Below the pieces are notes generated by a model, which saw only the letters and a program-made list of their open reading frames with translations, made no database searches and was not told the DNA's origin. A DNA stretch of 64,000 nt. Source: Isoetes taiwanensis (taxonomy: Eukaryota > Streptophyta > Lycopodiopsida > Isoetales > Isoetaceae). The position numbers and the translations under genes are program-made. The first letter of the stretch is position 1; the number at the start of each line of letters is the position of its first letter. The stretch is from NCBI GenBank assembly GCA_021234155.1, contig JAJEKV010000291.1:124001-188000 (forward strand), given 5' to 3'. Shown here one piece after another: positions 3,390 through 33,444 of the stretch.

Positions 3390-3418
3390 CCATCATTCAA
3401 TTAAATTGGGTTTATGTC
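3390..3418 (+). repeat. Giant element left terminal inverted repeat
   Basis: It starts CCATCAT, then a variable base, then CAATTAAATTGGG, a variable base and TTATGTC. The reverse complement of 27789-27817 matches 27 of 29 positions. Similarity stops just inside. Confidence 0.85.
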
Positions 3419-3664
3419 TTAATTTTGGGACAAATTTCATATTGCATGTTTTTAGTAGCATATTCAAATTCACACATTTCACCTCAAAATTATGAAAACG
3501 TAATATCATGTTATTTACAAAATAGTCAATATTTCACAATATAGCACCATATCATAAAAACGTGATAACAAAAATTTACATAGTTATTCAACTTTCTTCA
3601 AGCACCCCCAATGATATCATAGCCTTCTTCCCGACATCCCGAGGTATTGTAATTCTCGTGATTT

Positions 3665-6505
3665 CTATTTTGGAATAGTGTTTGGAGTCCATGAGTACAA
3701 AACACTTTCATAGTCTAGCCAAAGATCGGGATCACTCGGATTTCTCCTCCATTTCTTTGTCCAACAATCTGAAAGTACCTTTCTTTTATCCGACACGTTG
3801 GTCAACCGATGCTTTGGACACCACCATTCCACCCGCACATGGTTGAAGTTAATATTACCTTCTTCTTTGCAAATATCGAGGAGATAGTGAACCCCAACCA
3901 CTTTGGATATGTATCTAAATCTCTGGCTTTACTATCACAAATTGGTGGCATTCCAAGTCGATTGGAAGGTTCATAAGCATCCATGCCTAGAAACTTTGGC
4001 CTATTGTTCTTAGGACCAACATAGTGTTTTGTCGAGGAAGGAGGAGGAGCATATTGCTTGCGAATGCTACTTACGGTGTCATCAAAATCCTCGCCAAGCA
4101 CCCGCTAAGGTCTTCCACCTAGTTTTAGGCAACCACCCTTCTTTCAATTCATCCGAGGATGTGTCTATCTCCCCCAACGGGTTAATCACCTTCTTTCCAA
4201 GTAAGCCACCAAGGCACGGTTGGTGTCATCCGGATTGGTTTGCCAATGCTTTATATAGTCTTGGATTCCTTCCTTAGTCAATCCCAATTGCTTCACTTCT
4301 TCAGTAGGTTTTAAAGCTTTTGGTTGACCTAGAGGTATCATAGGCTTGCCATTCTCATCTCTCACCATATTTCCTCCCCTCCTCTCCACTCATCCTCTGA
4401 AGGTCTCATCTTCCATTGGAAGATTGGAATCCCATCTCTCACCCAAAAAGTGAACTGCAGAGGCACGGAATGACCTTCAAGATCCAATGTATAACCATCC
4501 ACAAAGCTCTTCCAATCGGGCACTTCTTCTATGAGAGAAGCTATAGGGTTTGGAGTAGTGCATTCATGCAAGATTTCCATTAGCCTAGGAAAGTTGGTCC
4601 TTTGTTTTTTGCTTCAAAGATACAACTATATTTGCCAAATAATGCATCCACATCCTCATGGGTATGCCCGGGCATAAGAAACCCTAAATTAACTCTTTCA
4701 AATATCCCCCGGTACTGTTAAGTAGGATAGGAAAGAAAACATCCACTGTTCTTATTTTGGCCAAGCACAATTATCAAGTTGCAAGAGAAACCTTTTGGGT
4801 AGATCTTGAGGTTTAGCACGTGAAGTTGAAGCTCCAACATGTTCATTAGACCCATGCTTCCTAAACCTTGCCTTGCTAAACTTTTCAATATTGTTAGGGT
4901 TTCCATCTAACAATGCTCTATGTAGTGCCCGGCTAGTCAGAAGGTCCCGGAGGTGACCATTGTATCCATTTTCATAGTTTCTCAAACACCTCATGATACT
5001 CCCAATATGAAAATCACGGACCATCACTCCACAACTCCAAACTAAAATGGCCATAGTAGGTTTGATTACGCCCATGCAAGATTGCCCGATCATTGAGATC
5101 TCAGTAAAGGGTATGATCTTCCACATGACTTTGGTATGTACTTGAATTGTGGAAGACAAGTCTTTTGCTGGTCCATCTTGTCATGTATAATACATAAATA
5201 GTTATTGGGTTCCAATGCGGATAAAGTCCTCCACATCCAATAACATGATCTACATGATAGTTGGTCAGTCATATGGTCCTTCATATGCTCCCCTTATCCT
5301 AGCCCTTTGACTAGGTTGCACAGTCTTATCAAGAGTCTCCTTCAACTTAGCACATAAATTGCACTTTGTAAAGTTGTTTGAAGTTGCTATGGTGACATGA
5401 TTGAAATGCTTCTTCCATAACCTACTAAAGCTAGGTTGGGATATTGGAAGAATTCCCAATTCTCGAAGTAGGGAATTCACTTCTTCCAAAATCTTTTGAG
5501 TACAATGTGATGGCAACCTTTTCTCAACAATTTGCTCTTCCCTTTTCATCCCTTACGCTTTTTGTGTGGCATAGACTCGTGCATTGAAATCAATATATTT
5601 TTCAAATATCTCCCGGCAGCCGGGGTCCTAGTGTTGGTCTCAACAAACCATTATTTCCATGTAAAGCAATCCTGTTCCCCTCTGCCTGTTTTTTTTTGCC
5701 AATTATGCCATGAAGAAGTTGGAATTGCATGGATACTCTGCCATGCTTTTGCACATATCCATTTGCCTAGCAAAGGGTATCTTTTTCTGTTTGGGTTTCT
5801 TTCATCTTGAAGTGCATGCTCGAAGATTGTGTACATGTGGGTCCTCCTCTCATCAACAGTGTACTCTTGAAAAGTGGCTCTTGCTTCCACCAATTGTTCT
5901 ATTGTGAAGAATTGCATACAATCACTCCAACAACAATCTGAGCCCCTAACCTTCACCATTGTCTCACGTTTGGTGTCACTAATCAACTTGGCTCTTTTGC
6001 TAGGATAATGTCTCGGCAATAACGATACTTCTCCCCTTTTGCCTAGGTTTAGAGTTCCAACCGCCAATGGATCAATATCAAGACAATCATTGTCCCCAAC
6101 AACCTCAAAGCTCACGGAAAAATATAATCCTCCACAAATTGAACACTACTTATAGGCCATGCCATGATGCAAGGAACCTCCAATTGCTTGACACAACCAA
6201 AACATTCCTTGTCACCCAAACCTTTACCTTTCGGTTGTCTTCCAACATCGAAATTGCAATACCAATATTGTCTTCCCTAGCCTTTCATCATTAATGAGCT
6301 TGACCGAGGATCTCGCTAGCACAATGACTCCTTGGCCTACTATTTCCTTGTTGCACTTGTGCATGATTCTCACCTTCTTGTTCCTCCATTGCACCCTACT
6401 ATAGAGGACTAATTGTTTTTCTTCAACATTCTTGCTAGGAGTTGGTTTTTCATTGATATTGCTCTTTTCACCATCTTGAGTTGGAGGGGCACCATTGACC
6501 TAGGC
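3665..6505 (-). pseudogene. Transposase 1 of the giant element (DDE, DUF7869-like)
   Basis: On the minus strand several frames join into one protein. From the N-terminus they give a segment after a splice-acceptor-like site at about 6506; a cysteine/helical module (CCWSDCMQFFTIEQL ... Y-LLGKWIC-KAW, 5700-5940); a segment with FTKCNLCAKLKE (about 5350); QLDNCA, the likely catalytic Asp (4765-4782); GFLMPGHTHEDVDALF (about 4636-4680); and a C-terminus VEWWCP ... CWTKKW ... LYSWTP ending at the TAG at 3665. This order is that of a transposase-like family found in plants, oomycetes and invertebrates. At least four frameshifts are present. The family name is recalled, not searched; the role as transposase is inferred from DDE-like motifs and TIR context. 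Transcription diverges from transposase 2. Confidence 0.7.
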
Positions 6506-6967
6506 AAATTGCACCCTTTTTAGTCAATGAGTAAGAAAAAATTATTACACCATAAGATAAAAAAGTACGTACATTTATGGAATATGTAGAGGAAAATCAA
6601 ATTTTTTAAAAGCAAGAAATTCCTTGGAAATAGGTTTAATATAATAATAACAATGGGCATTAAAACGAAATCATTTAAAACAAGAATTTTCATGGCAACA
6701 ACAAGGAAATGACATTTATATAAATATATCCAAATTTTAATTATCGAAAATTTGGATATATGATTCTGAAAAAGACATATAACTAATAGACGTGAGAATT
6801 TATTATCCATAATAATATACCCTAGATAATATAGCTGGCGGGAATTTCGTACGCCTGGCGTGTTATTTGAGGCAATAAATTATTCACGCTAAGAGCTAAT
6901 TAACCCTATATAAATCCGGTTCACGCTCTCAAGACCATTACGTCCCAATTTTTTTTTACGCCCCGCC
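6506..6967. promoter_or_regulatory. Intergenic region between the divergent transposase genes
   Basis: This AT-rich spacer lies between the two divergent transposase genes. It contains a dyad motif ACGCCTGGCGTG (6851-6862) of the family common in the right half of the element, and the TATA module described separately. It is likely to hold the promoters for both genes or, for the minus gene, an intron, since coding similarity of transposase 1 begins behind an acceptor-like TTGCCTAG. Confidence 0.5.
6881..6935 (+). promoter_or_regulatory. TATA promoter module, copy 1
   Basis: The module reads TATTCACGCTAA, then TATATAAATCC (TATA at 6907-6915), then five bases and ACGCTCTCAA. The same three blocks recur at 20197-20252 with the same spacing between TATA and ACGCTCTCAA. 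An ATG with a good context (CCGCCATGGCG) follows at 6968. This looks like a core promoter with start region reused by two genes of the element. Confidence 0.65.
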
Positions 6968-9071
6968 ATGGCGTTGACCTCGGGCTTCATGAAGAACCCG
7001 AGGTCTCGTCAAAGAGACGTCGGGTTGAAGGGTATAAGCGCGCTATTGGGGGACAGAAATTCATGTCGCGACATCGGGGTGCTTTGTGGGTGCTTAGGGT
7101 GTTTTTTAAAAATTTGGCATCGCCTGTTTTGACGGGTAGTTAACATTTTCTTTAATTTTTCTTAATCATAATTAGGCGAAATTAGTGGCGCCGGATCTCC
7201 CCTGCTTTCGGGGAAGGGGGAAGCTCCATTTTGATTTCAAAAGCGGCGAGGGAGTCATTCTTGGCAAAAATGGGCGGGGGTAACCATGTCTTTTGCTTGG
7301 TTCTTGCACTGAATTTTTTTCTTGACTCCTTCTTTTCGAGAGAGTGCATTTTGTTGCATGGCATGGACTTTGATTCTCTTGTTGCAGAGTATGAAGCTAA
7401 ATTTGGGCGGGGATTTGGATTTGGCAGCGAGAATCTTTGGGAGTGGATTTGAATTACTACCGCCGACAAATCTCTTAGAAATTTGAATATGATGATTCCA
7501 TTGATGGGGAAGGCGAGGAAATTGAGAGTCCATCCACGGTTGCAAGGGGAAAACAAGGTATATGAGACTTCACCACTCTGAGGCGCCAATTAAGCAAGGG
7601 AGGCATGCTTCTACACAAAATTCCCCATGTTCTCCAAAGCACAAGAAACCGTGTTGTTGCATGTCCCCGACAAGTACAACAAGAAAAATTATGGTGCAAG
7701 AGAAGAGACCAAAGGAGAAGGAGAGCTGAAAGATTAGGATTGAATTCTTTAGCGAGCAAAAAGAAAAGAAGGGCTTTCTTTGAGGGTGAAACAGGTTAGA
7801 AGCCCGGATCATAGTAAATTCATAGAAAAAAAGATGCAAAAACATGATTCCTAAGGGACGAGAGAGGAGGTCATTGCACGAGCCTTTGAAGCACTACCGA
7901 GAATTCAAGATGCTAGGAAAGAAAGAGTTCTTGCAATGAAACATGTTGTTGAGAGTGTTAAAGACACTCGCCACGGCCAACAAAAAAAAAAAGCGAGGGA
8001 CATTTGCAATGCAAGATCATCCACTATCATGATGGCTTTGAAAGAAAGGGTCTGTGAGAAGCAAGGTTTGTGAGGTCTTAAACTTGAGAAGAAAAACAGT
8101 TTATGCAGCTATTGATAAGAGAAATCTAGCGTAAAACCGGAGGCCCTTGGAGTATGTTCAAAGCGTAAGGAAAGATCGGCGAGGTTGAGTGATGAAGATA
8201 GAAAACATAGTTCAGTTTTGGACAAATAACACTTTCGGGTGTCTCTAACAAGAGACAAGTTATCAAGTTGAGAAGAACACCCAATGGAAGAAAGGAACGA
8301 AGCCTTACTCGATGCATGCAATTCATTTTACGGAAGAACCACAAGTAAGTAATCTTAGGATTCATATTCAATTCAGAAAAATGAGTAAGTAATCCTAGTA
8401 TATTCATATTCATCTTGCTAAATATTGTGGTACTTGCGGGTCACATTCTTTGAAAGGTTCAAAAAAAGCACATCGAGATTTGCATTGGATTGAGACTTTT
8501 TGAAGCTTTGAAGCCAAAGTTTGTGAGGAGGTTAAACGAAAGAGAGACTTGTTGTTGCATCTATCACATGAGAATGGAGTATGTAAGGCAGTGCTCTCGA
8601 ATAGCATTAGAAGGGACAGCAATGTGCATGGTGAACAATGTGACTGTCAATGTAAGGTATGTGGTGTTGGTCCTACTTGTCAAGCAAGGAACCATGTCTT
8701 TGCAAACACAAGCGTTTTGTGGAAAAGTTTCTTATGTGAAAAGAATGAGAATGTGGAGTTGCACAAAGATGCATACCTTAGGATGTCATGTGCAGATTGT
8801 GGAATTAAAAAGTTCCAACTTTGTCCTTTAGAGGCCAGCCACATGGCAAAGGTGGAATGGAAGAACTTTGAAAAGGTGACTCACTTTTTATTAGCAACAT
8901 ATATGCCATTGATTGTGGTTGACATGTGCTCTTCCTTGCTTGTACATTGTTTAAAGCACAATTTCATTATTTTTGGACAAAACCTGAATTTATGGACCAT
9001 TTTTTAAATTGTCGCATGAATGACTCTTTTTCATACACTAATTGACATCCCTTGCGAGTGCTGCATATGCC

Positions 9072-9497
9072 TCAGCAGCACGCACGGGTATCTTGATAGT
9101 ATTGGGTATCTTCTTCTTGTTTGAAAGCATAGTCGATAATCTCTAGTTCTATACGGTCACTTGCAGTCGTTGGCCTCCATCTCTTCTTCCAACAATTGAC
9201 ATAATTGGATGGGTACATCTGGTTCCTCACAGGTACAGGCTCCCAACAAGTCACTTGGATAGTCTCAAAGTTCTCTTTCTTATCATCCATTTGGGGCTCT
9301 TCAATAGCATACCCTACCCACGTCGGACACAAGACATCATCAGACCACACCATTACAAAACATGCCTCACGGTGATGGCTTGACGCTTTGTGGTACATGA
9401 TGAGGCATCCAAAAACAAAAGGCCCAATGTGCCCGATCAAGCTCTCATCAATATCAGAGGTATGCACATGTTTAATGAAATATATAAAAGATATCAA
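9072..9497 (-). pseudogene. C-terminal fragment of a third transposase-like protein
   Basis: The 141-residue frame contains FVMVWSDD, then WVGYAIEEPQ, TCWEPVP and CWKKRW, the same layout as the C-terminus of transposase 1 (VEWWCP ... CWTKKW). It sits on the minus strand inside the intron of transposase 2. It is probably a remnant of another copy of the family inserted or duplicated here. The similarity is to a pattern, not a verified alignment. Confidence 0.45.
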
Positions 9498-10032
9498 TCA
9501 CATACCTATTTCTATTTTGTTGCAAGAGAAATTTCACGGTAAGATCTTCATGGATGGCTTGTCAAATGGACATTCATGTTCTTCTGAGAGTCCCAGATAT
9601 CTTGAGAATAGATGATGTCGACTTTGATGTAAGTGCCTTCTTGTCACAAAGTCCGGTAGCTTTGGCATTGTAGTAGTCCATATATAATGAAATAATCCAA
9701 AAATGAAAGTTGAGATTGCTAAGCGAGATGGAACCCTTGGGTGTGGGACCGTCCATAGTGTTCAATCCTAGAAAATGGCCACAGACTGTAACACCCGGGT
9801 CTATAATGATACAAAATCTTTCCCCAAAGCTATTGTAATGTCATACCTCTATTGTCAGCAATTAGCATCTCCTAGAGTGTGTTACCCTGACTTCAAACAC
9901 CTCTTCAACGCTATGAGCGGTTGGGACTAAATGAGGTGGTACATGAATTCTCGTAACAAGAAACCCTTTTGAAACCAGACGTCCATTTTGAATATGTTCA
10001 TCATCTGCAAAACAGTGAAAGATATATCATTA

Positions 10033-13000
10033 CAAATTGGGCGCTCGCCGCATTTCCAAGCTTGCACATCTGAAAATATATGAAAACATGGGAAAAATGT
10101 GAAAAAAAAAAAAAAAAAAAAATTGGCGCAAATTGGGCCCCAGCCCTATTTGGGCTCGCCAAGTTAGGCTTCGCCCCATTTCAATCTTTGAGATTAGGGC
10201 CCCATCGTGCACAAATTTGGGTGTCTCCCTTATCTCGTGCCGCGAGATTTGGTCTTGACATCTTGAGCCCTACTGTTGACTTACAATCACCACAAGTTGA
10301 GCCAAGCTAGTAGCATAACAAATTATTGACAACAACATTGTTTGCTCATTCTTAAATCAAACCCTATGACAAGTAGCTATGCCATTTCGAAAATAAAAAG
10401 TCATACCTCATCTTGAAGCCAAAGGGTGTGTCTTATCACCTCATTATTAGTGTGGCAATGCATCTTTGCAACTCTCAACGAAAGAGAAACATGGGTACTT
10501 AGAGCACTAGATAAAGGAGATCTATTCTCCATTCGAAATTAAAATTACACTAAAATATAATCTAGAATTGCAATAAAATGACAACCTTGAATTGCAAATC
10601 CACGAAAGTCATGACACATTACGCTAAGCGCAAATGGTTTAGTCGAGGCGGCAATGGCCGAATTGGCGAGGCATTTCGGAATATGGAATGGATAGCAAGT
10701 GCTTGGCGATATTGAGTCGAGGGGGGGAAATTTGAATTTGAATTTTGAATCTCAAGAACGACGTGAATGGTCCACACGACAATATTGAGTTGAGGGGGGA
10801 AATTTAAATTTTGAATCTCAACAACCACGTGAATGGTCCACGTGGCAGCTTTATTTTGAATTTTGAAATGGTCATGTTAAGGTGCATTTAATTTGACACG
10901 CTCTATGGGCACTAACTACGCATGGACCTTTTATTATGAGCATGCCACTTCCCCATCACGCATGCAACCTCCTCGTCCTCCTCCTTATCTGCTCCTCTTC
11001 CTTGAAGGCGCCCATCTTCTGGAGGACCTTTTGAGGTGTTTTCCCATGTTTCATAAAGGCGCCCATCTTCTAGAGAATATTTTGAGGTGTTTTTGCATGT
11101 CCAAGGCTGCTAAAGGTTAGCATATCTCCTTCCTTAGTGTTTTTATTCCTTTTGTATTGGCTTTATATGCCCACTTCAATGGTGCATGGCCCTTGTTTTT
11201 CTTTTACCCTTTTGTTGGGTGTGCATGTTGTATTTTGCTTTAACAAGGCTTACTTTTACTTAATAAGATTGGGTTGTCACTTGGAAAGGGGTGGCTAATT
11301 TGGAGCCCTCCTATTTTTATTATTTTTGCCTTGAACACGACCATTGCCATATATTATTCATTTACAACTTTTCTTTTATTTTAAGTTAATCTATTAGGCA
11401 TGCAAATTGGGCGAGCGCCCAATTTGATGTCTAGCTCTACCAAAACTTGCCTTCCATACATTCTAATACTTATATTCCACACATATTTTCCCTTCTAATG
11501 GACATGTAAATTGGGTGGTCGCCAAATTGGCCCGCCCCATTAGGTCTTCTTCCCCTATACATTCTAATACTTATATTCCACACATATTTTCCCTTCTAAT
11601 GGACATGTAAATTGGGTGGTCGCCAAATTGGCCCGCCCCATTAGGTCTTCTTCCCCTGTATGTTGTATGGAGATTCCTCATGCACAAATCGGGCGGGCCC
11701 AATTTGTTATGTGCTTAGTCTTGAACATCTAACTTGCCTGCCCATTATGTTTTCCCTGTATGTTCTATGGAGATTCCTTATGCACAAATGCCCGATTTGG
11801 TGTGTCTGCCTCGTAGAAGTGCCAATTTGTTGTGCCTCGCTAGCATGCCCAATTCTTAGAAAAGTAAGAAGGAACAAGATTAGAATGTTTGTTGAGCATT
11901 CTATTTCAAGATAAGAAATTGAAAAATACATGCACAAGAATTAACGGCTCACACAAATTAGGGGCTCAGAAATATAATGAGTATATTATCTGCTTGTTTT
12001 CCTACAATCAATTCTCTTTTAAATTGGGCGATCGCCCAATTTGTGGGACACTACTGATAAGCTATTAGACTAGCTTATCCCATTCTGCAAGCTTATGAGC
12101 TTGTTTTTCTGAAGTCCCAGGCGTATTCCTGCAAAGCGTTCTGCTTCAAATCCGGCGGACGCCCAATTTGATCATAATAAAATTAATCATGAAAGAAAAA
12201 TGACCATTTTGTTGGTCTTATAACACTGGCAGTCGCCCGATTTTAGAGTAGCAGTAGTTCTAAAGCTGGCTGGCCCTTATTCCTTCACCTGTGTTCCTGC
12301 AACAAGAAACCAAACAGAAGAATAAACCAAAATATGAACAGATCTATGATCTTGCAATCACGAATCTTTCTATCTTTTTGTCTATGCAAGCACATCTTTT
12401 GTCTATGTTTTGGCATTGCAGAAGTTCTCAAGCAATCTACAGATTCGAAACAGAAGGTAGAAACATTTGCATATGGCGCACTGAGGGTTCTTACCGGATA
12501 TGATTCGTCCTTGAGTACGAAATGGAGGCAGAAGCAAACGATCACCGCCAGAAGCAGAAGAAGAGACACAGGTAGCTTCATAGCAGGATATTGCTTTGAA
12601 ATTCCTCTTTGCTTTGAAATTCCTCTTTGCAGGAAGAGATACAGATATGCAAACTGCTTTTAGAGCAAATCCACAAAACGTTTACCTCTTTGTAAACCGC
12701 TTTTGGAGCAAATACACAACCTGATTCCGCCTCCTCCATTTTGTTCAGCTGGTCATTGAGATGACGAGAGAAGAAAGCGGCGGAGGATATTGCCGTCGAC
12801 ATCTACTTTTAGGTTTAGGTTTAGGGTTTTGAATTTTTTCTTCTTAATATTCTATTTAATGAATATCGTTTATCTAATTGTTTAAAATGACAAAAACCAA
12901 CAATTGCTTATTGGCCTTGTGTTTAAGGCTTTCGTCTTGTGTGTTTCGAGTGTTGAGTTCGAAACTGGCTTTTGACATTTAGATTTTTTTTTTTTTTTTC

Positions 13001-13161
13001 CGTTAATAATTGTAGATAAAGTCAACCTGTGATATTTAGAGGGTTTATTTTTTCCATTGGAAGTTATATGCTTCATTTTTTAATATTACCAATGTTGTAG
13101 ATAATGATCAATGTTGTTGATTGCAATGCAGCATGTGCAAATAGGGCGGTCGCCCAATTTT
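10033..13161. repeat. Palindrome family A (AAATTGGGCG / CGCCCAATTT)
   Basis: Inverted copies of AAATTGGGCG with a spacer of zero to a few bases recur. The clearest are 11403-11426 (arms CAAATTGGGCG, spacer AG, both arms perfect), 12021-12042 (a perfect 22-bp palindrome), 12147-12170, 13138-13161, 10033-10055, 11507-11530, 11608-11631 and 11685-11706, with half sites near 10129, 11785 and 12228. All lie inside the transposase 2 intron. The half site shares AAATTGGG with the terminal inverted repeats, which suggests a binding site for an element protein. Confidence 0.75.
11455..11656 (+). repeat. 101-bp tandem duplication
   Basis: Two adjacent copies of a segment running from attctaatacttatattcc to attaggtcttcttcccct repeat with a period of 101 bp and are nearly identical. 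Each copy contains one family A dyad motif. Confidence 0.85.
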
Positions 13162-14934
13162 CATTAACATGGCACATGGAAAATAAAAACTTACATCGTG
13201 GATAGTATAATATGTTATAAAACACATATTATATAACCATGTATTTTATAATATTTTTTATTAAATAGTTGTATGGGTATCAAATAGTTGGGGGTTCAAG
13301 CTATATTAGCTTACAATTCTTTCAGCGTTCTTTATATTTTGGATGAGAATGTACACTTTAGATCCTTGTTCGAGGTAATTTGGGAACTGTATGGACTTGG
13401 GGAAAGTCCAAAAATAATGAAATTGTGCTTTTTAGGTGCAGGAGACCTTCATTAAAAAAGGTGGACAGCCAAAAACCAAGGATGTTATGAAGCTAGTTTA
13501 CAAATCCACTTCTCTGCAAGAGTTTTTTGTGCATGCCAAGAGTGTTATTAAGCAGTTTATTCCTCACAACTACACTGCTAGATGGCAGGCTGAAAAGTTC
13601 AAAGACTGCTTGCAAACATTCCCTCCAGGTACAATGGTACATGTCATTGATTTTGCAGAAAACTATACCTTTAAGATACAGCAGGAAATACAAACCCTCC
13701 ATTGGAGAAATGACCAGTGCACGCTTCTAGTGCACATAACATATAGACATGCAAAAGATGGTGAGAAGGCAAACCTGGTTGTTGGTGACAGGAAGATTGT
13801 GAAGGAAACAAATTTCTACATCTCTGATGATAGGGACCATGATTGCTTATTTGTGCGGCATTGTTTGCAAAGGCATAGTGATGCTCTTAAAAGCTGGAAA
13901 TATAGAAGTTGATAACCATGTTTTACTGGTGGGATGGATGTCTTTGCTTTCGGTTCAAATCAGCAAGAGCATTTTATTATTTAGGCGGTATTTTTCGGAT
14001 GAGAGGCATCAAGATAACTTGGCACTTCTTTGCCTCACTCATGGAAAAGGCGACACGATGGTGCGAGTCGCGATGATCAAAAGAGTTCTTACAAGTGAGA
14101 TCTTTGAAAAGAAATTCCACACCACTAAGAAATGCGTAAGATGATCTTTGTACTTTTTCTGAGAGGTACTTTAGTGAAAAGGGAAAGCGAAAAGACTATA
14201 ATTCTATCGGTACACATTTCTTCTCACTACATTTTTACTATTCAAAAGGTGTTCTCATTTTGCATGCTTTTGTAGGAACTTTTGGCTTATCGGACTTGGA
14301 GAAGTAGACGAGGTCTATCGAGGTATATTTGTGACACTTTAAAGGGACGAAAAAAGTTCACATGATCGGACCTTTTGTAAAAGAAAGGCTGTTATGATGG
14401 CACACAAAACACTTTCATGTTTTGTGATGCATCTTTGGAAGGGTCTATGTAAGAGTTGTGTGAATTTGATAAGAGCAGGTGCCTTTGTCTATTCTGAACT
14501 CAAACCAAAGGAGGTGGATCGAGAAGATATAATTGAGCATGTGCGGTTTGAGGGTGACAATCGGTGGAAAGCTAGCCTCATAGAGCCGGTGACAACTTTG
14601 CCATTGTTAGCGAACCCGGTACAAAAACAAGTATGATTTTTGGCTAGTAAAGTTCTCGAGGCCATGCATGTAGTAGAAAGCGGCTTTTGTAGATGGTGGG
14701 GTGCAAAATTCAGCGAGAAGAGAGCACATCATTACAGGGGAAGTACTATGAGTTGAGGTCGACAAAAAATATGAACCCGGTAAACAAGCCCGGACCGTGC
14801 AACTATTCTCATCTTGTTATTCTTTGTCAAAGTTGAATTGCGAAAGATGTCTTGACGAGGAAAACATGTATAAGTTGTCGAAGAAGCATACGAGCAAATA
14901 ATTAATTGCTTACCTCCGGCGAGACTCGAAGCAA

Positions 14935-15250
14935 ATGTGATGTCTGCGGTTTCAAAAAACGGTGCTAAAAGTACATCCAAGAATGCAGATTCGGGAAGTT
15001 GATGTGATGTCTGCGGTTGCCAAGAAATCTGGTGCTAAAAGTAAAGTCAAAAAGCGGACTTCGGCAACAAATGTGATGTCTGCGGTTTCCAAGAAATCTG
15101 GTGCTAAAAGTACATCCAAGAATGCGGTCGGGAAGGCGATGTGATATGCGGTTGCCAAGAAATCACGGTGCTAAAAGTAAGTCCAAAAAGCGGGACTTCG
15201 GCAACAAATGTGATGTCTAAAGTTTCCAAAAATCTGCGGCTAAAGGACTT
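14935..15250 (+). repeat. About 68-bp coding tandem repeats (Lys/Ser/Ala tail)
   Basis: Five units begin with GTGATGTCTGCGGT or close variants at about 14937, 15004, 15073, 15141 and 15210. In frame they encode VMSAVSKKSGAKSK followed by a short variable part, a basic repeat that forms the C-terminus of transposase 2 and could bind DNA or direct nuclear import. Units differ by small indels that break the frame. Confidence 0.7.
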
Positions 15251-15414
15251 CCAAGAAATCTTAGATGATTTCTTAACTTGTAACTTGTAAATGAAGTGAA
15301 TGTAACTTGTAAAGAATTGATCGTAATACAAAAATTTTACCGACTCTCCATATCCTCCTTGTATCTCAAATTAAATTTGTTGTGCGAAGATGATCATTTT
15401 TGTACTAAGATATC

Positions 15415-15640
15415 CGGGATGCTTGGGGGTGCTTCGAGGTGCTTGGGGGTGCTTTTTGAGGTGCTTGGGGTGCTTTTCGAGATGCTTGGGGGCAGGGGTA
15501 TTACCCGAGGGAATATTCGGTGGGAATATTTCCTTGACAAAGGTACCCATGGAATATTCCCTTGCAAGTTTCGAGTTCTAGATTCCATAAGGGTCTTACC
15601 TTGGGAATATTTCATTGCGAATATTCCCTTGCACGCTTTG
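15415..15640 (+). repeat. GGTGCTT repeats and GGGAATATTCCC dyads
   Basis: From 15420 to 15500 the sequence is a run of tgcttgggggtgctt(t/c)gagg variants. It is followed by several copies of GGAATATTCC in direct and inverted form (about 15508-15630). Short runs of the same GGTGCTT type occur near 7078-7105 and 19070-19085. It lies just downstream of transposase 2. Confidence 0.6.
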
Positions 15641-15846
15641 AACTTAGAGGAATTTGAACTTAGATGAGATGTATTTGAACTTAGATGTATTTGAACTTAG
15701 ATGAATTTTAAACTTAGATGAATTTTTTGAACTTAGATGAATTTTAAACTTAGATGAATTTTGAACTTAGATGAATTTGAACTCTGGATGAATTTGAAAC
15801 TTAGATGAATTTGAGCTTATATGAATTTGAATTTACATGAATTTGA
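15640..15846 (+). repeat. 17-18 bp minisatellite
   Basis: About eleven degenerate tandem copies of a unit like gaacttagatgaatttt are seen, with some units carrying indels. It lies beyond the transposase 2 gene and shows no coding role. Confidence 0.85.
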
Positions 15847-16206
15847 AGCGGGCAGACCGAATTCAAGAAAAACACGGGGAAAATCAATCAAGTTCAGTAC
15901 TGTGCACAAAATCAAAAATCTGTTTGTATTTCATATCAAAAAAATTGCAAAGCCGCGATTACAATATCGATGAAGAGTGTAAGAACATTCAACATCTCTT
16001 CCACCTGGTATATAAGTTAAAATATACATGAAGTTAACACGGTTTGTTAACTTGCAAAATCTGTCATTACATAACTTTGTTTCTTTGTAGGAATAACTTA
16101 AGTTTCCAAAATGATACATACCGAACTGTATTGCTTGAATACATCCACGTCCCGAATATTAACACCAAATATTAACTTAGAATATTAACAAACCTGCGGG
16201 TCTATT
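15847..16206. other. Noncoding spacer
   Basis: No recognisable gene or repeat family is seen between the minisatellite and the minus-strand frames that start at 16207. Confidence 0.35.
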
Positions 16207-17620
16207 TTAACGAGAATCTTCTTCTTCACTCTTTGCGCATAGTATTGGCCAAGTGTTTTGCGTCCACATCATCTTCACTCTCATCACCATCTTCATTTTC
16301 ATCGGCTTCTTCACTTTCTCCAACATCGTATCTTCTTTCATTGCCTCTTCATCTCCAACATCAGCTTCTTTTCGGCAAGAACCACTTTTTTTGTAACATG
16401 ATCTTCTTCTACATTTGTAGCGGTGTACGTACATGTGTCGACTCACCTTCTTTAGCAACTTCTTTACCACCTAGTATTTCATTGCAAACCCCTGAATAGC
16501 CTCATCAAGCTGCAGAGGTATCCTTTGTGCTTATGCGATCTATTTGTGGATTACATATAGGATTAACTCTATGCACAAAAAGCATCTCGAACAAACCTCT
16601 ACACACCAAAGGAACTCATGCGGGTTAACAACACCGGAACAAGCTGGTATTGAACTAGACCCCGGATACCGGACATGGTTGACAAAACCAGTCACAACTA
16701 GCACCAAAATTTGAATGCTCTATACCAAGACCTGATTGTTTATCGTGTCCTCAACTTCATTGCTCAATAAACCCCTTTGCTCTTGTTCAAACTTCGGTTT
16801 GCAAACCCTGCTTTGCTTTCTCTGAGGCCCTGCTTGCAAACCCCGCTGCTCTTGTTCAAAAGTACGTCCAAAAGCTCGTTTTGATGATCAATTTTTTCCC
16901 CCTCAGCTCCAACTTTCTCCTTCCTTTTTTGGTCTTCTTTTCCACACGTTTGGTAAGCGGGGTGTAGTAAAAGGAACAAAAAAAAAAAAAAAAAAAAAAT
17001 AGTAAGCATTCAAGAATTTACCAATATCATTAGTAATGGTAATGGTAATTGGTTCATACCATCAGTTCCCTTATTTGGAGTCTTCCACTTCCTAGGCATG
17101 CTTTTCCTGCCTTTCTTACACAATGCGTGGGCATGGCATCATCAAAATCTAATACTTTAGCAACCCCATCTTCTGCAGCATTTGTGTGGTACTCTGCTTT
17201 TGGGATTGAGCTAATGTGTTGCTCGATCATCCGCAAGACCATCGGCCGGTATTGTATTCACATTTAGATGCGGTGGCCTTCTTTGGACTCTTGGTGTTAG
17301 TGGCCTTCTTTGGACTCTTGGTGTTTTTGGGGATGCTGGATCCTGCAAAATCAATAAAGCAATTAACATCTTCTACACATGAATCCATACACAACAGCAA
17401 ACATGTTTTACACGTAATCTCGACTTGTTCTCTGCGGACCTTCCTCTTCTTTTTTGCTCCCCGCAATGCACAAATGTTAATTAAAAGAATTTACATTCTT
17501 CTACATTCTAATTCAATTATGCAATGCAATTACCTTTTCCAGCTGGATTTGGTCATGGCTCTGGTTATAGGCCTTCTTTTCATGTTGTTATCATCATTGT
17601 TTGGAGTTTCATAATCACTT
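16207..17620 (-). pseudogene. Candidate basic/acidic nuclear protein gene, unrecognised
   Basis: Short minus-strand frames suggest exons of one gene. About 17440-17466 encode AKKKRKVRREQ, resembling a classical nuclear localisation signal. About 17270-17340 encode a duplicated KSPKKAT motif. About 16220-16330 give in one frame an acidic stretch (GESEEADENEDGDESEDD). Poly-A/T runs and splice-like sites separate them. No domain is recognised, and the exon order and start are not fixed. It lies directly downstream of the RING-like gene on the same strand and could be its continuation. Confidence 0.3.
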
Positions 17621-17663
17621 GAAAGCGTAATACGATCCCCTGTCATTGTCCCCCTGAAACTTC

Positions 17664-18741
17664 TTACGGATCAGGGGATATGATCGCATATCCCCACTGT
17701 GTCGGCAATCCTGTAGGTATAGTTGCCTTGCATACTATCTGACACAAATTCTCCAAGCACAATTGGAAGCATAGTAGATGGTATGAGTGTCCACAATCTA
17801 ATGTCACCTGCAACTGAAACTGTGTGTCAAAAGAAAGCATGCAGGCCTTGCATCCATCCTCCCCATCTACAACTGTCCATTCACCTGCACATGGTTTGAT
17901 CAAAGACTTGTGAAGGTAATTAGATCCAAGTCTGTTCAAGTTAGAAATGGCGTTCTGAAAATCTTTGTTGAGTTGTCGGCAAGAAGACAAGCGCAACTCA
18001 AGGTCTTGTGCACGCATCCGAAAGGCACTCCTCTTCTCTATCATGCTTTTTTTTTTCCTTACCATACTTAAGAGAGATAAACCCATACCATCACCCTGCT
18101 TTGCAAGTTCATTCAGGGCTCCATCTTCTTCTGGAAATTCAGAACCGAAATCTATAATGCAACTTTTTTGCTCTTGAATATCCCCTGCAAGTGCCATGCA
18201 AGCATCTTCATAAGCAGAAATCATGCCATCAAGCCTACATACCTCATTGTGCGACTCAACGGCTCTAGAAGACATGCTTTTTAATTCAGGTTTACGATGT
18301 ACCGCCCTATCTTGCAATGCTTCAAGTCCCACATTTATATTCTTTAAGCATGTCTCAGCCACTACATCCCTGTACTTAAACATTTTCTGGGCTGGTTCAT
18401 ACCTGGTAAATGCAAACTTTGCCCAGTTAACCAAATATTTTGCAGGGGCGTGTCTTGCTTTTCTTGTATTACGCCATGCAAAAGCTCTTGCAAAATAAAC
18501 CCTTGCTTCCTTGTTCTTGATCCCAAAGCGGGTACACTTTCGACGCCAAATCCCTAACCGGTCTTTGCAAACTCGGTAGGGCTTTGTGTAGTTTGATTTT
18601 TCCCTCCTTCATTAGCTCGACCATACCTGCTAGGAAATCTTACGGAGGGCATTCATCCCAAGTTATTGTCTCGGGATCCCTTCCCTCATTACATAGCCCT
18701 CGAAACTTAGCGAACTCCTCATTTGTAGTAGCGACTTTCAT
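17664..18741 (-). pseudogene. Coiled-coil protein with RING-like C-terminus
   Basis: The likely ATG at 18741 opens MKVATTNEEFAKFRGLCNEG; one TAA (about 18650) and a frameshift near 18440 interrupt the frame, after which a 256-residue stretch runs to the stop at 17664. The middle is helical and charged. The C-terminus has CKAC, then CGHSYHLLC and a final Cys pair (CQIVC), the spacing of a RING/zinc-binding fold, followed by IPTG-PTQWGY. Function is unknown; RING proteins are often ubiquitin ligases, but here a DNA- or protein-binding role is equally likely. It belongs to the giant element's cargo. Confidence 0.5.
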
Positions 18742-19121
18742 CCGGAAATGCAAGAGGAAAATTAAGAAAGAACTAAGTTTTTGGCGAAAAGAAAAGAAAG
18801 GATATCAAGAAACCTAAAACTAACTTTTTTTTTTTTTTCTCAGTAGAAATTTGGCGAATCATTGCTTTGCTACACCGCCATTTCCAAATAATTTCACGAA
18901 AAATGACATGCAATGATCCTCCTCCTCGCGCTCGATTCATACCGGAGGTCGGAGTACAAAGTGAAAAGCTATTGGCGGGAACCCTATTTTGTGGCGGGGA
19001 AGTGGCGGGAATCTTTCCTCCAGCCCGGCAAAACGTCAATGAAAGCCCCCACCATAAAAACCAAAGCGGGGTGCTTGGGGGGTGCTTTCATTTCGCAAAA
19101 TTGTCCCCAAAAGCGCGCTTA
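18742..19121. other. Spacer between the RING-like gene and the acidic gene
   Basis: It contains an oligo-T run (18828-18838), GGTGCTT-type sequence and GCGGGAA repeats near 18970-19020, but no clear gene. It probably includes the promoters of the flanking divergent genes. Confidence 0.35.
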
Positions 19122-19437
19122 TACCCTGAAGAACCCCTCTCTTCCCCGCTCATCGATTTCCTTGCCCAATTCTCCTCGATTCGATTGAGGAGGATGATGC
19201 TGATTTTGAAGAGGAGGAGTTGAGCTCCTCTGATTCCTCTGATTCTGAAGAGGAGGAAGAGGAGGAAGAGGAGGAGTTGGAGGAAGAGGAGGAGATGTCC
19301 TCCCAAGAGCATGAAACCGCTCTGCTTCGGGGTTGGCTTGACCCTGAAACAGAGAATGAAATCTCGGAGGAGGAGGAGGAGGAGGAGGAGGAGGAGGAGG
19401 AGGAAGGTCGACAGTTCGACCAATTTTGGAGTGGTTA
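19122..19437 (+). CDS. Highly acidic Glu/Ser-rich protein fragment
   Basis: An open frame from after a TGA at about 19121 to the TAA at 19435-19437 encodes LDSIEEDDADFEEEE followed by Ser/Asp/Glu runs, then HETALLRGWLDPETENE and a long Glu run ending RQFDQFWSG. There is no ATG before 19293, so an upstream exon is likely. It is low-complexity apart from the central segment. Acidic proteins of this kind occur next to transposases in large elements, but no function can be assigned. The proline-rich frame on the other strand is only its shadow. Confidence 0.4.
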
Positions 19438-20196: not shown

Positions 20197-20256
20197 TATT
20201 CACGCTAACTTATTTCTAATTGTGCCTATATAAATCCATTTTACGCTCTCAAAGTT
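20197..20256 (+). promoter_or_regulatory. TATA promoter module, copy 2
   Basis: ATTATTCACGCTAA, CCTATATAAATCC (TATA at 20227-20235), five bases, then ACGCTCTCAA. This matches the module at 6881-6935 block by block, with identical spacing after the TATA. GAGAATTTATT and GGCGTGTTA also recur upstream in both (6793/20095 and 6857/20174). It suggests a common promoter class for element genes. Confidence 0.65.
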
Positions 20257-21830: not shown

Positions 21831-22569
21831 CTTTTTCCAATGAATACAACAAATTTTGTCTACTTCTATATTTCTACAATGTAATACATGTTACATACCT
21901 TTTTTAAGCGGTTTCTTGGCCATGCAACAAATGTTCCAACACTTTCTCCAACCGTATCCCCACCGGGGTGTCTGCGAGGTAAAGCTTCATCCATAGCGCA
22001 GCAGTTAATCACTGTAACTCGGACATACTTATCCCCGAGCGGAATTCCATGACGGTTCTGATCCGGATCGATGGAGTCGATCTTGCATAATCCTACTTTC
22101 CTTTTACGATTTGTAGTTAACATGAAACATTCATCTTCGACCTTGCGCAGAAAATTGCTATTGAACACCTACTATTGGAAATTAATGTTCAAGCTATTGG
22201 AATGAGATGAGTACCCAAGTGCGTCAGAGCCATTCTTGAGAAGCTGATTTGAGTCTCTGAAGCTGATTTGAGAAGCTGAAGGCGCTATGGAAACTCTGGC
22301 TTCGGGGAAAATTCGAATTAGAAGAAAGATTAGGTTAACTACGTTTTAGGGGATAAATTTGGCGGGATTTTAAAAACTTAATGAAAGAAGTCGGTGGATC
22401 GGGTCTTCGTCATTATTATTTGTATGTGTCAAGAATATTTTAAACCGCATTTTGTGTTTTCTTGAAATTCAAATTTCTCTTTTTCTCGTCTGGTAGCAAA
22501 AGCTATTTCTTGAGCAGCTTCGGCGTATCCGAAGCGACCTTCCGACTCTCTGTTACTAGGCGACTCGAG

Positions 22570-25500
22570 ATGTCTTCTAAAGCGAATCGAGGTCGAAAGG
22601 CTGGTGAGGAAGCGGTGGAAGAGGAATCTCTAAACCCGGCTCTTCTCAAGTTTGGAGGGGCGTTGATCGGAATACCAGAATACAGAACCCTATTCAAGGT
22701 ATTTAATTTGCCCACGAATACACCTTGTGTGGAGAGTATTATGCTTGCATGAATTTGAGATATTTCCTTTCACTTAATATGCTTTGCATGAGTTTGAGTT
22801 ATTATGCTTTGCATGAATTTTAAGTATTAACATCGGTTAATGCTCGATTGTCCGTTACGTAGAACATAATTTTGCTCGCTTTTTATATATAGAATATAGC
22901 GGTGTTAGGCGGTTGGAGATAGCAATGTTCAATGAGGTTAAATAGTGTGAAATATGGATTCATGAAGGGTATGTAGCTTAAAATGTGGATGCAAAATAAT
23001 TTAGTTTCAAATTAAGCATAGCATGGTCAATAATAGGAGATACCAACACGCCAAGCGTGATTTGTACTAATTTAGGTTTAAATGCACGCCAAAGCGTGAT
23101 CTCTTGTTCGAAAAGTACTCTAAAAGTGCTCATCTTCATTTGCAGTGCTCAAGAGGAAGAAAACCCTACTAATTGGGGGTTCTAATCCACGCCAAGAAAG
23201 CAAGGGCGCGACCAGATCACGGTACCATATGATCTCACCTTAGATGATGAAGGGCCGATTCTTATAGCAACCAATCGACCCCACGCCTGAAGAGGAAATG
23301 GGCGAGGGTGCTTAGTGGTACGTTGACCTTGCCAAGACAAATGGCAAGCTTCGACTTAACTCTCTTCTCGAGGAAAAAGGAAGGCACAAGATGGCCAAAC
23401 AAAGGGATCCTAATCTCTTGTGAGGAAGAGGATGACACCTGCGCAAATTGCTCTTGGAGATTACACGAAGCGAAGAAAGATGCGCTCGGACTTACTCTTT
23501 GTAGAGCTAATGCATACAAGGATACGTTCATGAAGACAGATGTGAACAGTGAGACATGTTTTAAGTATGGTTGGCCAACCAATGTAGCGATTACGCCAAT
23601 ATCTATTTGCCAAGGGGTTACAAATGCGTATGAGGCATGTTCACTAAACCGACACCAAGTCACTATTTGCAGCAAGCTAGGGGAATTAGCTGACTTGAAA
23701 GCTTCTAAAAGGGTCCTAGATCTAGGGAAGAATGTTCAACCCTGCAGGTTGTCGGAAGGCATGGAGGCTTCGTTTTTGAGAATGAACAGACAGAGTGGCG
23801 CCAGACTAGAGGCCATGAACAATTTGAATAAAGTGCGTGACCATTATCCATTGGGTCTTAAGGAAACTTTTGCGATCCATGTGAAGTCCTCATCCGTTCA
23901 CCAAGCTCCATTTATGTTAGCAGGGAGATATGATCCAAAGCACATGCCATGGAGATTGTTGAGCATGATTAGTAATCCAGGTCAAATGCCTATGCCAGCG
24001 GATGTGCTACCTTGGGATATGATCTCGAACAAGCTTCTTTGTGTGGGACGAACGCCCGAGGAGCTATTATCAAGTGATGATATTAAATATGTCATCATCG
24101 ACGGGCAGCATTCGTTGAGGCACAAAAAGGCCATCATCAGCAAAGCGTAACAAACAGGCCAAAAGTGTTCTACAATCACTATGCGCGATAGGAGGTGTCA
24201 GATCTTGGATGCCAATACTTCACCGCAGATTTGGCTGAGATTAGTGCAACTTTGAATGAAATGGGGAAGACATTTCTATACAAAAGGTAATCAACCTGGT
24301 TTCATAAATTGTATTCCGCATGGTGCTTTTCAAATCAAACCAATTCCACGCCGGGCATGTTTTGAAATCAATCGAATTCCGCCAGGCGTGTTTTCAAGTC
24401 AACCAATTGATTTGAAAACGCCTGGCGTGAATCGATTGATTTGAAAACACGCCTGGAATTGGTTTGATTTGAAAGCACCGCATGAATTGCATTAGTAACT
24501 TTATTCATTTCACGCCAGGTGATTTTTTCTCTTCATCAATTCTATTCAAATCCGCGGCGTGTTTCTATTCTATGATATCGATTCAATGTCCGTACTATTG
24601 CAGTCCATACGTTGAACAACCGTGCTACCGCCGTCAGCGATTGGGTGGAATATGGCTGCCCATTGCCCAAAAAGCAGGGCAGGCGGGTCAAAGTCCGAGG
24701 CATTCAAGCCGGAGCGGACTCGCCGCATGAACAATTATACGAGGAGAAGAAGAAGACCGCAAGAAAATCAAAGAAAAAGGTGGTGATGACATTGCAGATC
24801 CTTCCAAAGCTCATCCAGCCAGTCAGGACCAATGTGACTCAGTATAAGATTGTGTTTTGTAAGGAGGCAAGATGGCTCAAGTGGAATGAATTCGGGACGC
24901 TTATGCACAAGGGAAGCTGCCGGGATACTATGGGTAGGGTGCCTCTGTTGATGTAAGCATCTTTGACTTGAATGTGACAGAGATGAGAAAGACTCGAGGG
25001 GCTAGACGGCCCGAGACCATTTGGGTTTTAGACCGGTGCTTAAAGAAGGAAGTCTTATACAAGAAGGGTGCTTTCACCAAGGATAGGATGTCCTTCGTTG
25101 AGTCTTTACTGATCATGTAAAGGATATGCATTACAATGAAGTCACCGGTAGGAGCCGAGTTACAAAGGCTATCGGGGGATGTGGCATTATCCGAAATTGG
25201 ATTCTTTGGACAAATACAAGGTCGGGTAATGATGACATCAAGAAGTTTGTATTTTGGTCAAAGGACTTCCTAAAGAATTGGAAGGCTAAAAATACAAAAC
25301 ATAAGGAGACTCTACCCCTAAGGTCTCGGGCTGAGTTGAGAAGAAAAGTGGCCCTTGTGAAGAAGATTATCGGAGAAGGCGATTAATCGTCCGAAGATTG
25401 AGTCTCCATTCGGGTACAAAGGTCTCTTGCCGATTCAACTTCGGCCTTAAAAATATATCACTCTTTTGTGTTGGACAAGCGAGGGGGTGGGAGAGGGAGA

Positions 25501-26640
25501 TATGGGCATGAACGGAAGGACTACAATAGCTTCTTTACCACCTGTATAGGATTGACAACCGAGAGGTCCTTCACTATTGTCATCATTTGTCCTTCGTGTG
25601 AGTCACATGCATGCACTATCTGGCTGCTCATGATCCGGAGTGCCTCAAAGTTATTAGGGGGGATGCCTAATATATGATGTTAAGGATAATGAGTCAACGT
25701 AAGCGGCGGAAGATGGCACATGTGATCTTTATTATGATATCCATGTCGGGGCGAGGAATATGATATTGCTAAGGCCAAGGGTGACAATAGCGGTGCATGG
25801 GAATGTTTTCTTCTAGATGATCGGACTTAAGAACTATATTCTTTCATACGGATCGGGATCGGTGAGATGGGGATGAGTCGAGAAGAGGATGAGGATCGGG
25901 ACCCCCTCCTCTAAGTGGGGGAAATCAAGCACGAGCTACAAACTAAGGAGAAGGGCCCCTTAAATAAAAATGGATTTCCCCGTCTATGGTGCTTACCTCG
26001 TCGCAGGCATTTGCTCCAATTGATACAACCTGCTTGGAGCTTCATGTTGGAGGTTATATTGCCCGAGAGGCTCTTATGGGTGCAAGAAGATGTCTTTGCT
26101 TTAGAGTGATGAGCAGGCCAAAGACTTTCTTGAACCATTCCTCATGCATGTGCTTGCCAAGTCTCCTAAAGGCCCTTATGGCAACCTGAAATCATCAGCA
26201 ATCAAAAGTCTCGTAGACTTGTCCAATTCGAAAGTGGGCGTTGCTCGGAGAGGGAACTAGTGTCTACTGACACGATAAGGAAAGCGTAATGAACAAATAG
26301 CGCTGCTAAACTGGTTGCTCAAAGAAATCTTTGTGATGGCGGCGAACTTAGGGAATATCCTTGCCCACATTGCGGGTGATGCAAGCAACAATAGAGTAGA
26401 TTCACGGGTTAACAATGAAATAATTGGATGGGAAACCGAAAATGAAGGCAACGAAGCGGCTCTAGTGATTCACAGGGTTTGCCAAATCAATAGTAAAATA
26501 ATGTGGGTTGTGAAGGACGCAGTGAACTAATAGAAAATAACAATTCTAACAGTCGAAGAAGGCGAAGATTAAGGGTGGCGGAGGGAGAATAGCCGATGAT
26601 TAAAATAAACCGAAGATGATAGGTATGGCCTTGCCCCGCG
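22570..26640 (+). pseudogene. Large cargo gene with DGQHS (ParB-like) motif
   Basis: Exon 1 runs from ATG 22570 to 22698 (MSSKANRGRKAG ... EYRTLFK) before a GT donor. After a spacer with family B palindromes the coding resumes near 23140. A 280-residue open frame (to 24150) contains CANCSWRLH, RHQVTICSKLGELADL, SFLRMNRQSGARLEAMNNL and, near its end, YVIIDGQHSLRHKKAI. The last resembles the core box of ParB/Srx-type domains, which are often fused to DNA methyltransferases. After a hairpin (24.3-24.5 kb) further frames (24612-24956, 25126-25386, 25915-26200 and 26315-26530) seem to continue the protein, with IARE(A) and GARRCLCF late in it. No catalytic methylase motif is certain. Frame breaks are frequent after 24150. 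Confidence 0.4.
24322..24478. repeat. Long inverted repeat (about 75-bp arms)
   Basis: The left arm ggtgcttttcaaatcaaacc ... and the right arm pair almost throughout with a very short centre (around ccaattga, 24402-24409). Each arm contains two CACGCC/GGCGTG units, so the hairpin is built from family B motifs joined by caaatcaa linkers. It would fold into a strong cruciform or RNA stem. Confidence 0.75.
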
Positions 26641-26843
26641 AAATAAGCGCCACAGCGCGTGATTTAATTTGTATTACCTTTGAATTAAATCGCGCAAAAG
26701 CGTGCTTTGATTATTTTTTCGTTGTCAAACTAAATCCGCCCGAGCCTTGATTTGGTTATGACTATTTCAAATCACGCTTGGCTGGCGTTTGTATTGTTTG
26801 TGTTATCGTATCTTGCTGACCGGATACATGTTTGATGTTTCAG

Positions 26844-27481
26844 CTTCCATTGCGTTTCTAAGAAGGTTGTGGTGTTCGACCTAAACGGAGTCCTTTGCAA
26901 GACTTTTCCGAAAAATAAAGTGGCTAGAGAACAGTTTCATCAGACACCAGTAGAATCAAACACCAAGTGGATCTATCCGCTTGACGCACTTGAAGGAGAT
27001 GCTAGGCGAGGCATTGAGGTTATTTCGAGTTGGTATTTGGTCATCCATGGAACTAAGGAACATCAAGGATACTTTGGAGGCATTGGGGGAAATGCGTAGA
27101 AATTGGTTGACCCTTTGGGATCAGAACAAATGTGTGAAGTTCACTAATCCCAAGGATCCAACAGGCAAGCCTATCTTCATCAAACACTTGAGTAACATGA
27201 TGGACGAACTTGGTATCGAGAATAAGGATGATATAATCATAGTGGATGATGATGCTCTCAAATGCTTCTACAATCAAACACAGGCCCTGAATCCACCATC
27301 TTACGATCCAAAAAACTTTGGGACAGATGATTTTCTGGTGAAGTTTGTGTCTATTATGCATAATTTGGCTATGGGGATGACGGTGGGTGAAGTGTTAGAT
27401 TCGTACCCAGAACTGGATAGAACGGCTGACATGGAACCACACCTTGTTAAATACGTGGAAAAACATGGATTGATCCCTTAA
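26844..27481 (+). pseudogene. FCP1/NIF-like HAD phosphatase-like protein, DxN variant
   Basis: Behind an acceptor-like TTTCAG the frame reads KKVVVFDLNGVLCKTF, the HAD motif I position, here D-L-N instead of the D-x-D of FCP1/SCP phosphatases (GAC 26878, AAC 26884). After a frameshift near 26985 come RVGIWSSM (motif II region), GKPIFIKHL with a conserved Lys, and IIIVDDDALKC (motif IV, DD). The protein ends VEKHGLIP with TAA at 27479-27481, 336 bp before the element's right end. FCP1-type enzymes dephosphorylate Ser/Thr, e.g. of the RNA polymerase II tail; loss of the second Asp usually abolishes or alters catalysis. A related gene with the same substitution is at 61593-62297. Confidence 0.7.
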
Positions 27482-27788
27482 TGTTTTATTGGAATATATG
27501 ATATTTTTGTATGATATTTGTGCCATGTATCGATAATTTCGAGTCTGGAATTGCCTCGCAAATAATGCAATTTGTTATTATCAAACCTAATATTATCATC
27601 TATTGAGCAAGCAATATTTGTCTCATCTATGTTAGCAACTTGCTCTTCATTTCTGCATATTTCAATTCGCATATGAAAAGTCACACGTGAATCGCAACCT
27701 TATGTTATTTTTGAAGTCCAAAAAAAAAAGATTAAAAAAAACAAAAACCCCCTAGAAGACAATAGCAGGTTGGCGTGATTTTGGAGTT
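27482..27788. other. Right subterminal region of the giant element
   Basis: No gene is seen. It is AT-rich with an oligo-A run (27719-27730) and, next to the TIR, a GGCGTGATTTT half site of palindrome family B. Confidence 0.5.
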
Positions 27789-27817
27789 GACATAATCCCA
27801 ATTTAATTGGATGATGG
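27789..27817 (-). repeat. Giant element right terminal inverted repeat
   Basis: Read on the minus strand it is CCATCAT, C, CAATTAAATTGGG, A, TTATGTC, differing from the left end at two of 29 positions. It is followed by the right target duplication copy. Confidence 0.85.
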
Positions 27818-27825
27818 TTACAAAA
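27818..27825. repeat. Target-site duplication, right copy
   Basis: TTACAAAA pairs with ATACAAAA at 3382-3389; the copia frame resumes immediately (NRLPSSSIQGNIPD). Confidence 0.8.
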
Positions 27826-30026: not shown

Positions 30027-30037
30027 TAAAGGAGGAA
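30027..30037 (+). promoter_or_regulatory. Copia polypurine tract
   Basis: The purine run AAAGGAGGAA immediately precedes the 3' LTR and would prime plus-strand synthesis. Confidence 0.85.
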
Positions 30038-31843: not shown

Positions 31844-32181
31844 ATCCTTCCCTTCCCGAGGTTAAACGTCCGCGTTAACCTCGAGGAAAAATTGTCTATC
31901 CTTAATCGTCTAAGGATATTTAATTCGATAACTTCAGTTCCTTTAGAAGTTACGGATTTCGCATTTCCATTCAGTTAGAATGACCTCAATTCCTTTAGAG
32001 GATTTTCGTTCCCTTTTCCATTAGGGATGACCTCAATTCAATTAGAGGTCTTAATATCTTTACAATCGTTAGTAAAGAGTTCTATGCATATTAATATCTA
32101 GATATTTTACCAATAAAATAATTGCAATTAATAATATGGAGTTTCCAAATATAAAGTTTGAAGGTCATTGGCCTTTGCTCA

Positions 32182-33441: not shown

Positions 33442-33444
33442 CCT

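Follow-up and report, generated by a model that had tools for sequence, protein, structure and literature searches.

A 24.4-kb insertion in a copia element of Isoetes taiwanensis, read as two nested DNA transposons

In the stretch of the Isoetes taiwanensis genome analyzed here (64,000 nucleotides, C856:124001-188000, called the window below), the integrase frame of a copia retrotransposon is interrupted by 24.4 kb of inserted DNA, and the locus raises the question of whether this insert is a single giant transposon carrying many genes, as a first-pass annotation had proposed. Our analysis indicates that the insert very probably consists of two cut-and-paste DNA transposons of different families, one nested in the other. 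The outer one is a many-copy element with 31-bp terminal inverted repeats (TIRs) starting with AACC and 4-bp target-site duplications (TSDs), which sits in the copia integrase region; inside this outer copy lies an inner element of 12.1 kb with other ends, another transposase-like gene and a 4-bp duplication. The genome searched comprised 1,658,258,908 bases in 1110 contigs; the published description of the assembly gives Nanopore data treated with miniasm, racon and pilon, and a total of 1658.30 Mb in 204 scaffolds and 909 contigs (PMC8566536). The features that define the nest are the following.

689 to 30712, plus strand: copia long terminal repeat (LTR) retrotransposon, host of the insertion, with LTRs at 689-1364 and 30037-30712 and TSD TGATA
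3384 to 3387 (left) and 27820-27823 (right), no strand: target duplication ACAA
3388 to 27819, no strand: copy of the outer DNA transposon, 24,432 bp long in this window, defined by its TIR pair, 4-bp TSD and copy comparison
3388 to 3418, plus strand: outer left TIR, AACCATCATTCAATTAAATTGGGTTTATGTC
27789 to 27819, minus strand: right TIR of the outer element, identical to its left TIR at 29/31 positions
7030 to 19126, no strand: inner DNA transposon of a separate family, 12,097 bp, with its own TIRs and TSD

The host copia element has LTRs of 676 bp each, 98.4% identical, with 9 mismatches and 2 gaps in an alignment of 678 columns, and is flanked by the 5-bp duplication TGATA. Its integrase frame, interrupted by window positions 3388-27819, closes once the insert is taken out, as had been claimed, with the addition that one duplication must be removed as well (...ANMIQNRLPSSS...; ...KTANMIQNRLPSSS...). 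The insertion is therefore upheld, while its exact ends shift from 3390 and 27817 to 3388 and 27819. The inverted-repeat ends, previously given as 27/29, are also real: the pair AACCATCATYCAATTAAATTGGGWTTATGTC is 31 bp long, inverted and identical at 29/31 positions (2 differences), and a control with 2000 randomly drawn 90-base pairs gave no case of 28/30, the best having 21. On the other hand, the duplication described as 7-8 bp proved to be the 4 bp ACAA, which appears longer because it adjoins the AA/TT of the TIR.

A genome search for the TIRs had been set beforehand as the test of the element, with a lack of other copies counting against it; many other copies exist. The left 211 bases (from 3390) gave 1158 first-look candidates and the right 226 bases gave 1045, figures that stand for candidates and not for confirmed copies, as only a subset was scored: 40 of 40 were 100% identical for the left end and 40 of 40 were 98-100% identical for the right end. 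Eighteen outer copies, all picked by a perfect left end, were then inspected (the window, seven fetched at 20-30 kb and ten more as end windows); both ends were visible in 14, the right end of the other four (c7 and three of the ten) falling outside the fetched stretch. All 14 have an exact 4-bp duplication outside the AACC...GGTT ends, and their ends are constant while the flanks differ, as expected of a cut-and-paste TIR transposon. The duplications are ACAA (window), CTTT, CATG, AGTA, ATGA, GTAA and CATG in the window and fetched copies, and TAAA, GTGT, GTAG, TTAT, TACA, CACT and AATT in the end-window copies. The hAT and P superfamilies make 8-bp TSDs and MULE/MuDR elements TSDs of 8-11 bp; with 4 bp in 14/14 copies, the outer element was rejected as a member of hAT or P and likewise of MULE/MuDR. 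Its length is 12.0-12.9 kb in 10 of the 14 copies, typically ~12.3 kb, and later inserts account for the 24-29 kb of the window copy, c2, c3 and c6. Copy c3 holds a 2.66-kb insert with CACTA-like ends (L015 7618 to L016 276), the first 831 bases of which are 97.7% identical to window 59431-60263.

The inner element is bounded by the TIR GGGTATAAGCGCGCTWTTGGGG, matching at 21/22 positions, and by TGAA at 7026-7029 and 19127-19130, a duplication read from the window's inner copy. All seven fetched outer copies are continuous across element positions 3640 to 15737, that is, without window 7030-19126. A genome search with the first 217 bases at the left of the inner element yielded 26 matches including the window (26/26 candidates scored), the others being 86-97% identical. 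With its own TIR and TGAA, these left-end matches and its absence from the seven outer copies, the inner element is therefore a second, rarer family, and the single 24.4-kb multi-gene transposon resolves into two elements of ~12 kb. Both transposase-like genes that had been reported are present, as are several further genes, but they are divided between the two elements: T1, the DGQHS gene and the FCP1/NIF-like gene belong to the outer one, T2 and a RING-like frame to the inner one. The insertion is a genuine TIR transposon with extra genes, and the seven other outer copies lack the inner gene set.

The genes of the outer element are:

3591 to 6145, minus strand: T1, a DUF7869-type DDE transposase gene, frameshifted in the assembly, assigned by Pfam, homologues and a homologue's fold
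22570 to 24280, plus strand: DGQHS gene, with two exons drawn by eye and a likeness to ParB in motif alone
24576 to 26530, plus strand: downstream coding stretch, broken here, its second part matched by an open frame elsewhere
26836 to 27478, plus strand: FCP1/NIF-like (HAD phosphatase-type) gene, by PF03031

A T1 piece at 4365-4613 matches PF25273 with E 3.7e-5 and 23.8 bits, below the cut-off of 26, and the stitched T1 query retrieved 31 homologues, the best of which (P0001) has E 7.8e-206 with 68% identity across 56% of the query. The structure model of another homologue, P0002, displays the RNase H order with D509, D654 and E693, and through this model the transposase of the outer element is predicted to have the RNase H fold and an acidic triad. 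T1 and its DUF7869 relatives have conserved motifs, LQLDN...ENKN and GHTHEDID, in common.

As for the remaining genes, the motif [VIL][VIL][DGA]GQH[STR] was found in four of the eight sequences scanned (window, c2, c4 and c6), while the stitched DGQHS frame gave no Pfam family at E<=1 and its homologue search nothing at E<=0.1; a long palindrome resembling a miniature inverted-repeat transposable element occupies window 24322-24479, within the intron proposed to follow the DGQHS exon. The downstream stretch matched no Pfam family over the cut-off, and its second part is covered by an open 509-amino-acid frame in another copy (L020:7427-8953, minus strand). The FCP1/NIF-like gene matches PF03031 with E 3.3e-8 on 26954-27478 (1.1e-8 when stitched), presumably resembles the HAD/NIF phosphatases of plants, and, when seven copies are read by majority, forms one open frame of 214 amino acids. 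Beside copy c4 lie a divergent, nearly open DUF7869 gene (L019:3712-6006), a stretch judged by eye to resemble a long interspersed nuclear element (L019:9738 to L020:3910) and the inverted fragment of another outer copy (L020:6280-9766) that has the 509-amino-acid frame.

Three coding features were recognised in the inner element:

8504 to 8880, plus strand: N-terminal part of T2, a transposase-like gene of the DFAENY family, by homologues
13436 to 14150, plus strand: catalytic part of T2 (DFAENY ... D ... HGKG), frameshifted
17664 to 18608, minus strand: RING-like frame, 314 codons open, zf-RING under the cut-off

The stitched T2 query found 15 homologues (best E 3.4e-67), with which it shares the blocks DFAENYT, WSDG.A.QFK and GHGKGEHDGAGA; the structure model of one of them, P0033, has an RNase H-like region at 221-429, and P0034, the sole relative tested against Pfam, matched no family over the cut-off. 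The zf-RING models reach E 0.04-0.4 on the RING-like frame, all under the cut-off. In the gap of T2, window 8950-9343 is 85.5% identical to L023:8541-8942, a segment at the terminus of a further DUF7869 gene that adjoins copy c5, and may represent a third insertion, within the inner element. Elsewhere in the window we observed another LTR retrotransposon (31198-42489, with direct repeats of ~645 bases, 95.5% identical, and CATGA flanks) and a perfect (ATTCT)21 microsatellite at 43867-43972.

Across the genome, DUF7869 gave 9905 first-look candidates, and 150 of the 150 scored were over the cut-off; about 128 of these lack an internal stop, with open frames of up to 987 codons, and no match was obtained in any of the 14 control genomes. 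The DNA methylase family N6_N4_Mtase (PF01555) gave 1443 first-look candidates, again with 150/150 scored over the cut-off, and matches in 11 of the 14 control genomes, which fits the prokaryotic character of the family. When the 150 best methylase matches were compared with the 150 best of the 9905 DUF7869 candidates, 24 lay within 20 kb of one of them, where uniform placement expects 0.54, the other 126 having no neighbour among those. Of these pairs 22/24 are divergent, and 17 are spaced 5.08-6.04 kb apart, all 17 divergently. This closeness speaks against bacterial contamination.

An example of the divergent unit is L053 (C1093:4836600-4846500), in which a ParB-like stretch (GGNHS, by eye) and a methylase (PF01555, E 2.9e-17) occupy one strand and DUF7869 (E 1.4e-44) the opposite one, the methylase and DUF7869 genes being both split into several frames. 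The stretches DLPYG and DAFSGSGTT, seen by eye, we take to be methylase motifs, although the piece with DLPYG has no Pfam match over the cut-off; for the ParB-like stretch Pfam gives just DUF6551, with E 0.0087, under the cut-off. In the pieces of the window's outer second gene PF01555 has no match, and ParB_N (PF02195) has none in the genome (2 candidates scored), while 10/14 control genomes are positive; the ParB likeness of DGQHS and L053 consists in the motif resemblance DGQHS/GGNHS alone.

The coding state of the outer element was assessed by scoring T1 lesions against the open-frame relative P0001 (459 amino acids) in eight copies. The frame is broken in all eight, by 12-18 frameshifts each and 2 stops in total; some frameshift sites recur in 5-6 of the 8 copies, and the majority reading of seven copies is still split into several frames. 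Differences between copies fall near-evenly on codon positions 1/2/3 of T1 (157/168/207), with 118 synonymous vs 261 replacement codon differences, and the NIF-like gene has 8 synonymous vs 59 nonsynonymous differences and 3 stops; therefore the copies are not constrained as coding sequence. The ends are better preserved than the interior: substitutions per kb and copy amount to 6.4 over the last 404 columns, as against 21.1 for the T1 part and 48-54 for the remaining interior, the conservation of the left end being biased because the copies were selected by it. Since T1 is broken in 8/8 copies, the interior is unconstrained and the ends are near-identical, the outer subfamily probably depends for its movement on an intact DUF7869 relative acting in trans. 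Private differences of the window copy reach 15.7/kb in T1 and 28.2 and 29.6/kb in two other long stretches, against 6.7/kb in a 747-base stretch and none in the last 404 columns; most of these values exceed the expectation from the flanking LTR pair (9 mismatches/678), which points to an outer copy that had diverged before landing in copia.

How else could the locus be explained? One composite 24.4-kb transposon with two transposases and cargo would account for both gene sets lying between one outer TIR pair; however, the inner 12.1 kb is bounded by separate TIRs and a TGAA duplication and is missing from 7/7 other outer copies, and its left end has 26 matches where the outer left end has 1158 first-look candidates, so that we hold this explanation to be very improbable. 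Some considerations weigh against our own reading. The outer family might still be autonomous, the frameshifts in T1 and in the cargo being assembly errors in poorly polished Nanopore repeats: indels far outnumber nonsense changes (2 stops in 8 copies), the NIF-like majority reading is open, one outer fragment keeps the 509-amino-acid frame, and the assembly was made with miniasm, racon and pilon (PMC8566536). The excess of indels in T1 may indeed be partly Nanopore error, and assembly errors may be the source of frameshifts; similarly, LTR conversion, the sampling of seven copies or error are alternatives for the excess of private differences. Nevertheless, the near-even codon positions and the synonymous and nonsynonymous counts of T1 and the NIF-like gene (with its 3 stops) oppose an autonomous family, short deletions are not concentrated in homopolymers (12/50 in the T1 part), and the copia LTR pair on the same contig differs by just 2 gaps; we thus regard continued autonomy as unlikely.

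The extra genes, in turn, could be captured, functionless pieces of host genes, as in Pack-MULEs, and not conserved accessory genes. The NIF-like gene, which belongs to PF03031 and varies between copies without constraint, would fit such an origin. Yet the DGQHS gene occupies the place of the L053 methylase gene, the methylase position of other DUF7869 elements, facing away from the transposase on the other strand. This hints at a common layout, although the DGQHS protein shows no significant similarity to the L053 methylase protein (hhalign E 0.13, probability <1%). We find capture a rather doubtful account.

If the insert is a nest of two transposons, as we favour, its history could be pictured as follows. 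T1, as a DUF7869-type DDE transposase, would recognise the outer ends, cut with a stagger of 4 bp and then join the ends; an intact DUF7869 relative, one of apparently many in the genome, would mobilise the outer subfamily in trans, and the second, inner family would later have landed inside the outer copy. The divergent second gene (DGQHS here, a methylase beside other DUF7869 genes) is best read, as a hypothesis, as coding for a transposon accessory protein that targets the DNA of the element itself.

With respect to known systems, a 4-bp TSD is reportedly a hallmark of Sola elements and the TSD of the outer element (14/14) matches it, in a comparison of duplication length. DUF7869 proteins (PF25273), for instance those of Riccia sorocarpa and Branchiostoma, belong to the same family as T1, with function filed as unknown in Pfam, and the DFAENY-family proteins (15 relatives, without a Pfam name) have blocks common to T2 of the inner element. 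Large DNA transposons with accessory genes are already known from algae: PMC12477816 describes giant KDZ, EnSpm and Sola-1 elements of Ectocarpus that contain nested insertions and whose transposases are often pseudogenised, refers to further cases in green and red algae, and proposes self-marking by methylase for algal transposons. One of its elements, Sola1-1_Ec32, is 21.5 kb long and encodes a 1104-amino-acid protein with ParB and N4C/N6A methylase on the strand opposite the transposase (PMC12477816). Like it, the outer element is a large DNA transposon with an accessory gene opposite the transposase strand, and a methylase adjoins other DUF7869 genes here; unlike it, the outer element measures ~12.3 kb and its second gene has no detectable methylase domain. 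In the literature searched we found no mention of DUF7869, which says nothing beyond that literature, and no paper on methylase-bearing transposons in lycophytes or land plants.

These results suggest a role for DUF7869 as a DDE transposase making 4-bp duplications, with ends and TSDs measured on 14 copies, and they illustrate that a nested insertion can mimic a giant composite transposon, in an anatomy close to that of the algal giant transposons of PMC12477816. More tentatively, and as a picture that is possible rather than probable, this lycophyte genome would have been colonised by perhaps thousands of DUF7869 transposons, many with a bacterial-type N6-adenine/N4-cytosine methylase in a divergent, self-marking pair, and the outer family of the window would be a high-copy lineage with an accessory gene too far changed to be recognised as a methylase, a lineage that, its transposase being dead, parasitises its relatives. 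The N6/N4 DNA-methylase genes of a land plant are linked here to DUF7869 transposons (24 near listed matches, with 150 scored of 1443 candidates), and this link predicts that adenine or N4-cytosine would be methylated in the elements or next to them.

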